Assembly (NCBI RefSeq): GCF_009935845.1
Contig: NZ_QWEK01000028.1
Location: 1-64,000, forward strand
DNA: 64,000 nt
Direction: 5' to 3'
Origin: Pseudoflavonifractor sp. 524-17
Lineage (GTDB): Bacteria; Bacillota; Clostridia; Oscillospirales; Oscillospiraceae
The notes under the pieces are model-generated. The model searched no databases and was not told where the DNA came from. It saw nothing but the letters and a program-made list of their open reading frames with translations. The position numbers and the translations under genes are program-made. Shown piece by piece: positions 7,585-62,905 of the stretch (its first letter is position 1; each line of letters starts with the position of its first letter).

Positions 7585-7666
7585 CAGAATCTGGATTCCC
7601 AACCGGTCCACCGGTCCGCCCTATATCCTGCCGTCGTGCCAGTACCTGTATTATGGCAGTATTCTG
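7585..7666. repeat. possible degenerate member of the MITE-like repeat family
   Basis: Upstream of flavodoxin. The left end CAGAATCTGGATTC...AACCGG resembles the terminal repeat of the clear copies (17 of 22 positions by eye), and the stretch closes with CAGTATTCTG, an inverted partner of CAGAAT. The interior does not match the other copies, so this is tentative. Confidence 0.35.
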
Positions 7667-10189: not shown

Positions 10190-10235
10190 TTCTCATACGC
10201 TCCCGCTCTGTTATGTCAGGCTTTGTCTGAAGCAT

Positions 10236-10332
10236 GTCCAAACGCCCAAGGGCGGATCTTTTTCCGCCGTACCGCGTTAGAAACGCTCTCGCCGCCGGAC
10301 ATTGCGCCAGTTATCAAACAACGCCTAAACTG
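10236..10332. repeat. dispersed GC-rich repeat, family 2, copy A
   Basis: Near-identical in layout to 50742-50857: shared blocks are AACGCCCA, TTTTTCCGCC, TACCGCGTTA, CTCTCGCCGCCGG, CATTGC/CATATTGC, CCAGTT and TCAAACA. The first part folds as GGCGG...CCGCC. The right end supplies the last codons and the TGA of cutC. Confidence 0.7.
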
Positions 10333-23959: not shown

Positions 23960-23994
23960 AATGATTCCCCTCTCTCTGCTTTGCTGCGTCTGAG

Positions 23995-24054
23995 CGCCTG
24001 TATTCACAACGGTTGAGGACTGTCCAGCATTCCCCGGTTATAAATACAGGTTCT
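23995..24054. repeat. MITE-like repeat, family 1, short copy
   Basis: About 60 bp in the ilvA upstream region. The left end CGCCTGTATTCACAACGG and the right end CCGGTTATAAATACAGGTTCT are imperfect inverted repeats of one another and match the ends of the copies at 36532, 48903 and 59350. It looks like an internally deleted member. Confidence 0.75.
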
Positions 24055-24209
24055 GATTTGAAATTGGACAGCGTTTACACAGCAAAGGCGCGGTCCTTCC
24101 GGCCGGGACAGGGGGCCGTTGTGATCGTTTGGCTGTGAGCGTTCTCTTGCAGACATGCAGGCATATTGTATATATAATAATGAGTTTCCCCGGTAAAGTC
24201 AACGTGTTC

Positions 24210-36531: not shown

Positions 36532-36698
36532 TAAGAACCTGTATCCACAACCGGAAGGCGCTGGATTGCCAGGGGATTTCGCCGTCCCACAAGGCAAAAA
36601 GACGCAGGAATACATTGCATAGTTCAAGCGCTTTGCTGCGGCGGTGCGGCAAACGCCCCGGCTGAACGGCGTCCAACGGTTATGGATACAGATTCTTA
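36532..36698 (+). repeat. MITE-like repeat, family 1, longest copy
   Basis: 167 bp inside the 336-bp gap between glgB and glgC. The ends TAAGAACCTGTATCCAC and its inverted counterpart (right end ...GGATACAGATTCTTA) match at 20 of 22 positions. The inner sequence from the left end (GCTGGATTGCC, GGGATTTCGCCGTCC, CAAGGCAAA, CGCAGGAAT) also occurs in the copies at 59350 and 48903. No coding content. The rest of the gap, an A-rich stretch before and a G/C-rich stretch after, shows no gene. Confidence 0.85.
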
Positions 36699-48902: not shown

Positions 48903-49007
48903 TTAGAACCTGTATTCACAACCGCTGAACACTGTCTTGCCGGGTCTTGCGCAAGGGCAAAATCCCTCGGCAATCCAGCGCCCCCCAGTTATGAATACAG
49001 GTTCTTA
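48903..49007 (-). repeat. MITE-like repeat, family 1, 105-bp copy
   Basis: Terminal inverted repeats TTAGAACCTGTATTCAC... and ...GAATACAGGTTCTTA, near perfect. Read on the minus strand the inside (GCTGGATTGCC, GGGATTTTGCC) matches the left part of the 36532 copy. 12 bases after the XpaC-paralogue stop. Confidence 0.85.
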
Positions 49008-49980: not shown

Positions 49981-50071
49981 CAGACTCAAAAGCTGGATTC
50001 CTAACCGGGACGTGCCGGGCGGCAAACGCCCCGGCTGGACAGCTTTTGGGGCTGTGAGTCCAAATTCTCAG
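49981..50071. repeat. possible member of the MITE-like repeat family
   Basis: Directly before the HAD gene. It shares GGCAAACGCCCCGGCTG with the right part of the 36532 copy, and its ends (AAGCTGGATTCCTAACCGG and the complement of GTGAGTCCAAATTCTCAG) are weak inverted repeats like those of the family. The match is partial. Confidence 0.5.
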
Positions 50072-50741: not shown

Positions 50742-50857
50742 AGGTCTTGCTGGAGCAAAGTCAAAACGCCCAGGCGGCGGTTCTTTTTCCGCCATACCGC
50801 GTTAAAGCATCTCTCGCCGCCGGGCATATTGCCAGTTTTCAAACAGACTCTAGAATT
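50742..50857. repeat. dispersed GC-rich repeat, family 2, copy B
   Basis: Begins 5 bases after the HAD stop. Blocks AACGCCCAG, TTCTTTTTCCGCC, ATACCGCGTTA, CTCTCGCCGCCGGGCAT, TGCCAGTT and TCAAACAG line up in order with copy A at 10236. A GGCGG/CCGCC stem surrounds the T-run. Confidence 0.72.
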
Positions 50858-56304: not shown

Positions 56305-56417
56305 TAACCTCATCTGTCGATTTACACCGCCGGATTTGGCACCTTTCCCGCCCCCAACGGGGAGCAGGCAGGTTGCCGGGCTTCGCAGGGCCGATCCCTC
56401 CACCACTCTTGATAAGG
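56305..56417 (-). ncRNA. SAM-I (S-box) riboswitch upstream of metK
   Basis: Minus strand. Starts CTTATCAAGAGTGGTGGAGG (kink-turn strand), followed by GAAGCCCGGCAACC, GGTGCCAAATCC and AGATGAG, the diagnostic S-box blocks in order. The aptamer is followed by a terminator stem, so SAM binding should end transcription before metK. Confidence 0.95.
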
Positions 56418-56440
56418 CATATTTATTTTTAGCAGCTTCA

Positions 56441-58671: not shown

Positions 58672-59352
58672 ATGTCCTTTTTCAACAGCCGTTCCGGACA
58701 GATGTCCGACTCGGTGCTTGTCATGATTCCCCTCACCCTGTCCGGCGGTCTTCAGGACGCCTACTCCTATTTCATGCGGGACAGAGTCTTTGCCAACGCC
58801 CAGACCGGCAATATCGTTCTGATGAGCTGCGCCTTCTTTTCCGGAAATTTTTCCGGCTGCCTGCGGTATCTCATCCCCGTTTTGGCCTTTGCTCTGGGGG
58901 TGCTGGCGGCGGAGCTTCTCCGCGCCCTGTCCCCCGGCGGGGGGAGGATCCACTGGCGTCAGAAGGCGGTGATAGGAGAGATTTTCCTGCTGGGGACAGC
59001 AGGTCTTCTCCCCGCAGGCTGGGACTGGCTGGCCAACGCCCTCACCTCCTTCTCCTGCGCCGTGCAGGTGCAGAGCTTCCGCAGTGTAAACGGCAGCGCC
59101 TACGCCAGCACCATGTGCATCGGAAACCTCCGCAGCGCCATGGCCCACCTAGGCGGAGCTATCGCCGCCCGGGACCCCCGCCGCCTTCGGGAGGCAGGGA
59201 AGTACGGCGCTATCCTCCTTCTCTTCGCCGCCGGTGCCGGCACCGGCGGCGTTCTGACCGGATATCTGGGCCTGCGCGCCATCTGGGCCTCCTGCGCCCT
59301 GCTGGCCGTGGGGTTCGTCTTGATGCTCCTCCAGACGCCCAGCCGCTCTTAG
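58672..59352 (+). CDS. DUF1275 (YoaK-like) membrane protein
   Basis: 226 residues, six spans. MIPLTLSGGLQDAYSYFMRDRVFANAQTGNIVLM is the family's first region (given here as a landmark only). AGGAGG site. Family function unknown. Its TAG stop coincides with the left end of a MITE-like repeat. Confidence 0.88.
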   Translation: MSFFNSRSGQMSDSVLVMIPLTLSGGLQDAYSYFMRDRVFANAQTGNIVLMSCAFFSGNFSGCLRYLIPVLAFALGVLAAELLRALSPGGGRIHWRQKAVIGEIFLLGTAGLLPAGWDWLANALTSFSCAVQVQSFRSVNGSAYASTMCIGNLRSAMAHLGGAIAARDPRRLREAGKYGAILLLFAAGAGTGGVLTGYLGLRAIWASCALLAVGFVLMLLQTPSRS

Positions 59353-59456
59353 GACCTAAGCTTGAAATCCACAAAGGATTCCTGCGCTTGTTTGCCTTGC
59401 AGGACAGCAAAATCCCTTGGCAATCCAGCATCCCCCGGTTGTGAATACAGATCCTG
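59350..59456 (-). repeat. MITE-like repeat, family 1, 107-bp copy
   Basis: The right end (GTGAATACAGATCCT) is a good family end; the left end is degenerate. On the minus strand GCTGGATTGCCAAGGGATTTTGC, CAAGGCAAACAAGCGCAGGAAT follow in the same order as the 36532 copy. It starts at the stop codon of the DUF1275 gene. Confidence 0.8.
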
Positions 59457-62844: not shown

Positions 62845-62905
62845 CACTTTTCCTAAAATTTCCCGCCGCCGGGCATGTTGACATTTATCAGCCAGACGCT
62901 AAACT
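62845..62905. repeat. dispersed GC-rich repeat, family 2, partial copy C
   Basis: Contains CCCGCCGCCGGGCATGTTG and then CAGCCAGACGCTAAACTG, in line with the right part of copies A and B (CGCCGCCGGGCAT; ACGCCTAAACTG). It lies in the kinase leader. Confidence 0.55.

Follow-up and report, generated by a model that had tools for sequence, protein, structure and literature searches.

One hairpin core behind several transposon ends: a mobile MITE-like element of Clostridia whose structure may be selected as RNA

MITEs are usually read as remnants, each tied to one transposase. ERIC, Correia/NEMIS and RUP are the described families that most resemble the element reported here: according to the portion of PMC2229807 drawn upon in this work, they too are short and intergenic, with inverted ends and target duplication, their transcripts are long base-paired stems, and ERIC and others act on neighbouring mRNAs. 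They differ from it in that the present element has one structured core, which many genera carry behind ends of various kinds; that portion of the source (PMC2229807) does not describe ERIC-type MITEs as exchanging their ends. The CIR repeats of Caulobacter and Brucella share with our element a phylogenetically conserved predicted RNA structure, but they are two-armed, carry a GANTC motif and belong to different hosts (same portion of PMC2229807). As for enzymes, the IS427 group of the IS5 family is close to the presumed parents that we describe below. In the sections of PMC3281130 considered here, its Paracoccus members have two ORFs, as do those parents, and a length of 832–865 bp (812–889 bp in our case); the PF13340 and PF01609 domains are common to both, and the Paracoccus direct repeats are mostly of 2 bp, with one of 4 bp. 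Our elements lack the transposase of these insertion sequences and have only some 16–19 bp of end sequence in common with them. A literature search over titles and the openings of abstracts found nothing describing the element, and six of its sequence words have no occurrence in the literature text that was searched.

The window – the whole stretch of DNA that was analysed – comprises 64,000 nucleotides of Pseudoflavonifractor sp. 524-17 (positions 1 to 64,000 of contig NZ_QWEK01000028.1). The layout of the element is GAACCTG...CAGGTTC, and its terminal 19-bp end, GAACCTGTATTCACAACCG, has eight matches in the window at three mismatches or fewer, against 0.02 expected from shuffles (Table 1). 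The genes on either side of the full-length copy were identified via their Pfam domains. The 99-bp copy is flanked by TTA on each side (48903–48905 and 49005–49007) and keeps a weak match to the core (R2, E 0.064), while the 60-bp copy has TGA on each side (23991–23993 and 24054–24056); the truncated copy has its remaining end at 59436–59454 and matches the core with E 1.5e-6 (R2). A preliminary description of this DNA had placed shared inverted ends at four sites. Both ends are indeed present at three of them, and 59350–59456 has one good end. The boundaries that it drew were somewhat too wide, their outer bases including the target-site triplets (TTA/TTA, TGA/TGA, TAA/TTA). Among the weaker relatives that it listed, those at 7585 and 49981 are plausible remnants and that at 797–830, which has only a 4-mismatch end by eye, is not established; the relatives at 10219–10325 and about 50776–50850 were absent from its list. 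The latter two belong to a second repeat set of the window, D5/D8, with ends GGCGTTGTTTGA / GAGTCTGTTTGA, which by its appearance looks like core-deleted or truncated relatives of the element, and of which 62858–62901 is a doubtful third member. The window also contains a SAM riboswitch, at 56307–56418 on the minus strand.

Table 1. Copies, parts and probable relatives of the element in the window (R2, core-only covariance model).
Feature	Position	Strand	Remarks
Full-length 161-bp element	36535..36695	+	between glgB-like and glgC-like genes; ends with 1 and 3 mismatches
Left terminal inverted repeat GAACCTGTATCCACAACCG	36535..36553	+	
Right terminal inverted repeat GAATCTGTATCCATAACCG	36677..36695	-	
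Target-site triplets of the 161-bp copy	36532..36534 TAA, 36696-36698 TTA		imperfect
Conserved hairpin core	36566..36665	+	R2, 49.9 bits, E 3.6e-10; a match by construction, this core being among R2's building copies
99-bp internally deleted copy	48906..49004	-	both ends found; minus-strand BLAST match
60-bp internally deleted copy	23994..24053	.	both ends found
Truncated copy, one end and about 90 bp, other end lost	59360..59454	-	BLAST E 6e-16
Single-end remnant	7587..7605	+	3 mismatches
Probable right-half remnant	50019..50043	+	BLAST 92% over 25 bp, E 0.003
Probable core-deleted relative, other end type (GGCGTTGTTTGATAAC...)	10219..10325	-	repeat D8; ends with 3 and 5 mismatches
Probable truncated relative, end GAGTCTGTTTGAAAAC	50776..50850	-	repeat D5/D8; one end

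The window's own genome (3.72 Mb in 149 contigs) has 89 matches to the 20-base end, against none for the reversed control, and these form 67 clusters. A BLAST search there with the 167-bp copy as query, in which 40 of 60 candidates were scored, finds 59 matches at E<=10; the query and eight others cover at least 93% of that copy, and these eight are 71–78% identical to it. The nine full-length, two-ended copies of the genome are 70–93% identical to one another (median 80%), and the 161-bp copy of the window is 75–83% identical to the eight others. A wider search found at least 115 matching stretches. With rough E-values, and in tallies that count the own genome too, a covariance model of the full length (R1) has matches in 202 of 400 genomes of the family (68 of 106 genera) and in 88 of 394 genomes drawn from the order, while R2 has matches in 85 of 391 genomes of the class (57 of 223 genera). 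In these large searches no more than 7 candidates were scored per genome with R1 and no more than 10 with R2, so that copy numbers are minimum values and the absence of the element from any single genome, a congener or not, is to be taken with caution. Collections of phages and plasmids yielded two phage records and one Subdoligranulum plasmid, which has no annotated feature in the matching stretch; among viral contigs, two contain the exact end and one a complete-looking insertion sequence. In the JAAWGY and JAAWIL records many of the matches, not all, are no farther than about 170 bases from the end of a contig, which is what one would expect if recent identical copies had broken the assemblies. 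The element is confirmed as real, far above chance, with the copies in its own genome and in other genera (by BLAST, end pattern and R1) that a dispersed family such as that of the preliminary description should have.

This element moves. Across 117 two-ended copies, 29 from the own genome and 88 from other genomes, GAACC...GGTTC is flanked by a triplet, mostly TNA, which is identical on the two sides in 63 of the 88 and in 13 of the 29. At its middle base, the triplet on one side agrees with that on the other in 72 of the 88 copies, where 33.6 are expected (0 of 10000 permutations), and in 16 of the 29, where 9.4 are expected (56 of 10000). In one genome, G702, a relative whose ends, GAACCTGTCTTCATAAG, differ slightly occurs as six identical copies at different sites, every one of them between matching triplets (TTA, TTA, TTA, TCA, TAA, TTA), which amounts to a recent burst. 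Another, G421, has four identical copies and a slightly different fifth, with less regular flanks. At one locus (L118) a GAGCCTG-ended element is nested in a GAACCTG-ended one, between ...GATTGTAA and TAAGGGAAAACG. Because uninterrupted copies, for example L084, read GATTGCAAGGGAAA at the nesting point and so provide a base-precise empty site, the nesting is a precise insertion with duplication of TAA. We also looked at the place of the window's full-length copy in congeners: the element is missing between the glgB-like and glgC-like genes in all eight where both genes were found together. R1 has no match in the eight congeners covered by the family search, with seven candidates scored in each. 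Base-precise empty sites were sought in congeners and none was obtained, the intergenic flanks being too diverged.

A short element with terminal inverted repeats, target-site duplication, dispersed copies and empty sites, one of them base-precise at the nesting, is what a MITE is expected to be. The proposal of a non-autonomous, MITE-like family without transposase holds well, supported as it is by the copies, the duplications and ends that match those of insertion sequences elsewhere. That it should be active in this lineage is, for the GAACC end type in the window's genome, doubtful, since the full-length copies there are only 70–93% identical and no parent transposase was found; judged from its sequences, this end type looks old there, and devoid of an autonomous partner. 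Could the copies rather stay at conserved sites, as regulatory hairpins that do not move or as a dispersed ncRNA gene? A core that precedes a SpoIIAA-like frame (L327) and a hairpin followed by what is, by eye, a terminator-like stretch (L324) would fit such a role. Yet the target duplications, the identical copies at different sites and the nested insertion all speak against it, and the same sequence does not recur at the same place in relatives, as the eight congeners without the element at the glgB-like/glgC-like site tell us. Ordinary regulatory hairpins at fixed places are rejected on the latter ground, and as a general account this reading is refuted and of very low probability, though it could hold for a few domesticated copies.

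Which enzymes move an element that encodes none? Fourteen genomes with the element were searched for IS5-family transposases by means of PF01609 and PF13340. Both domains matched in the insertion sequences L190, L200, L189, L205 and L227, with PF13340 and DDE_Tnp_1 in two neighbouring or overlapping frames, as in the IS427 group. Ends of type A, resembling GAACCYGTATTCAYAA, bound the insertion sequences L205, L227, L233, L235 and L243, those of L205 and L227 being like GACCCTGTATTCACAAG / GAAGCTGTATTCATAAGCG; type B, GAGCCTGTTTAAAATC, is present at both ends of L190, and type C, GGCCYTGTTTGAAAA, at both ends of L200. Seven longer insertion sequences measure 812–889 bp and L227 measures 732 bp; L239, of 284 bp, is a deleted derivative with type-A-like ends. 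The two ORFs of L243, which is located on a viral contig, are consecutive and encode 133 and 122 aa. Identical 3-bp flanks border seven of the nine distinct insertion sequences or derivatives (five TTA or TAA, one TCA, and one TTT, which does not fit TNA), in line with the 2–4 bp direct repeats of the IS427 group; those of L200 and L239 are not identical. Insertion sequences with type A ends are rare: their first ORF matched in 5 of 400 genomes of the family at E 1e-8, and a match was seen in 1 of 198 relatives at E 1e-15. The own genome has no PF13340 match above the cut-off and three PF01609 matches, none with matching end pairs. A transposase with the same kind of ends, another feature to be expected of a non-autonomous family, is thus found, in related genomes only and not in that of the window. 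Comparison of ends and domains suggests that enzymes of the IS427 type would cut the ends of the element. The element as an internal deletion of an IS427-type element was considered and rejected: three copies compared with the insertion sequence loci share their ends and, beyond these, matches at chance level only. A separate deletion product of such an insertion sequence does exist, in the form of L239.

The full-length form is a hairpin of about 161 bp with one long stem, and 60 of the 117 two-ended copies are 159–163 bp long. Structure was studied in the 65 of these 117 copies that measure 155–175 bp (9 own, 56 from other genomes; the 52 outside this range were dropped), aligned in one orientation. 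Over 55 pairs, 94.8% of the cells are paired, against 86.1% in shuffled and 37.6–42.5% in slid controls. As many as 31 of the 55 pairs have changed on both sides, against 20.2 when shuffled, and the cells concerned number 270 against 87.3, so that covariation exceeds what the shuffled and slid controls give, as is to be expected of a functional non-coding RNA. In the first fold, cells are Watson-Crick in 3380 cases, G-T in 397, A-C in 99 and other in 133, while G-A/G-A and other purines are conserved at unpaired positions in loops. When 42 further copies were added and the resulting 107 thinned to 55 under 85% identity, 51 of 59 pairs had two or more Watson-Crick types, and G-T exceeded A-C by 280 to 86 cells (37 to 15 columns, p 0.003). 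Rfam 15 has no family that matches the element in the window or at 12 diverse loci; a permissive search gave, in part of L117, two matches far below gathering scores.

The two strands are not equivalent. The + strand is predicted to be more stable in 64 of the 65 diverse copies (mean -84.9 against -64.5 kcal/mol), a count that does not equal 65 independent trials, the copies being related; random pieces of the window, taken as a control, give 30 of 65. The sole exception is the copy of the window itself, at -74.1 for + and -79.9 for the other strand. The + strand also folds better in 62 of 65 cores and in 63 of 65 end-found copies. It remains the better one in 63 of 65 when G-U pairs are forbidden (-65.7 against -60.5) and in 62 of 65 with DNA parameters (-43.1 against -35.4). 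Along a tree of the cores of 65 copies the excess of G-T is smaller than in the cell counts: inferred changes from Watson-Crick to G-T pairs outnumber those to A-C by 113 to 55 (binomial 9e-6; 22 to 11 in a sign test per column, p 0.08), and a bias in base change does not explain this excess, since the two classes of transitions are equal in paired columns (208 against 202).

We consider it probable that the element is a MITE whose structured core is selected as RNA, with IS427-type transposases acting on its ends. On one particular strand the core, some 100 nt in length, folds as a long stem that is rich in G-U pairs and has conserved internal loops of purines, and the folding models point to the + strand RNA as what selection would act upon. 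Several of the results weigh against this reading: no promoter is evident by eye, orientation to genes is unbiased, the window's copy folds slightly better on the other strand, the sign test per column gives only p 0.08, a smaller asymmetry persists with DNA energies, insertion sequences with type A ends are rare, and the flanking triplets are identical in just 13 of 29 own copies and differ in two of the nine insertion sequences or derivatives. A plainer reading takes the elements as ordinary MITEs that call for no explanation beyond mobility. The core would then be a relic whose copies resemble one another through shared ancestry, repair of the palindrome from arm to arm, and bursts from a few masters. 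Mobility and bursts are facts, and the lack of an orientation bias (see below) agrees with this. Yet repair between arms would give perfect palindromes, not the G-U pairs and G-A/G-A loops that are kept; neither does a relic account well for a strand that folds better in 64 of 65 copies, for a full length that stays near 160 bp, or for cores that are about 60% alike where the ends are only 46% alike. We regard the plain relic as unlikely. Another possibility is that the hairpin acts as single-stranded DNA, during replication or transposition, and not as RNA; the attC sites of integrons are the obvious comparison. In its favour, the asymmetry exists with DNA parameters as well (62 of 65), copies have no orientation bias to genes, and no promoter is evident in the element by eye. 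Against it, the strand gap is far larger with RNA energies, at 20.4 against 7.7 kcal/mol with DNA, and falls to about 5 kcal/mol once G-U pairs are forbidden; besides, TNA duplications and IS5-type ends point to double-strand DDE transposition. We hold this explanation to be improbable, more so than the plain relic.

What sets the element apart is that its interior is found behind several kinds of ends. Copies were hand-picked from the R1 and R2 match lists as divergent or near-identical sets, 40 and then further ones, and are no measure of frequency. The forty from R1 measure 156–164 bp, and their ends include GAGCCTGTTTAATATC, GGGTGTATCTGAAAACTC, GAACCTCTGAATAAATC and GGCCTTGTTTGA; two end types of hand-picked copies match IS427-type elements, namely those of L190 and L200. 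In the own genome alone the core has three end types: GAACC, GGCC (L344–L347, with TA on both sides) and GAGCC (L007:595–754). The GGCC-ended copies L345–L347 are 97–99% identical, and this end type may have moved there more recently than the GAACC type. Among the 65 copies, cores are 63% identical where the end type is shared and 60% where it differs; for the ends themselves the figures are 84% and 46%. On the core tree, counted for the 46 labelled copies (19 of the 65, with unassigned ends, being left out), the end type changes at least 10 times, for a possible minimum of 5 and a shuffled mean of 17.4, with 14 as the lowest; end type is therefore partly, not freely, exchanged. The preliminary description, which attributed the variation in size to internal deletion, was right as to the deleted copies and missed the structured core that is shared with other-ended elements. 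Head-to-head double core units inside a larger inverted repeat are also seen, in G1048 (L355–L357) and, by eye, in L315/L316.

Because the same core turns up across many genera with ends of several kinds, it has the look of the part that lasts. It would be housed, again and again, in ends that some transposase can cut, and a + strand transcript would help the element persist or act on its host. Tentatively – we would put this at somewhat less than even – we propose a mobile RNA core of about 100 nt, probably transcribed from the + strand, which has persisted class-wide by taking different IS5-family ends over and over, and some copies of which would have been domesticated as part of mRNA leaders. 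If true, this would be a selfish or useful RNA travelling in interchangeable transposon ends, and a core that changes ends would survive the loss of any one transposase. Here the interior of an element outlives its ends, about 60% core identity being kept across end types that are 46% alike, which makes it a testable case for a folded RNA (or single-strand DNA) as the unit that selection keeps. Present in 85 of 391 genomes of the class and without Rfam family, the core may be a common element that has been overlooked.

As to context, hexamer-scored gene prediction places 85 of 105 copies between two predicted genes, 13 overlapping a gene (10 of them by more than 80 nt) and 7 at an edge; the statement that all lie between genes is thus largely right, and not strictly so in the wider family. 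Another gene calling put 61 of the 105 inside reading frames, which we discard as spurious frames in GC-rich DNA. The 85 intergenic copies have no bias of orientation to the neighbouring genes (26, 22, 19 and 18), and a role in read-through mRNAs, which needs a fixed orientation, is for this reason rejected as a general account. At L327:501–604 (G765) a core without transposon ends lies directly before the ribosome-binding site of an ORF that was recognised by eye, from its translation, as SpoIIAA-like; this copy in a presumed leader is a possible domestication. L324 likewise has a core without recognised transposon ends, where a hairpin precedes a terminator-like stretch (by eye). Lastly, three larger copies, of 217–223 bp (L083, L133 and L174), have an extra hairpin-like insert containing GCGCCCGCAGGCGCGTCCAG, at a spot in L174 that differs from that in L083 and L133; this insert is perhaps another small mobile module.
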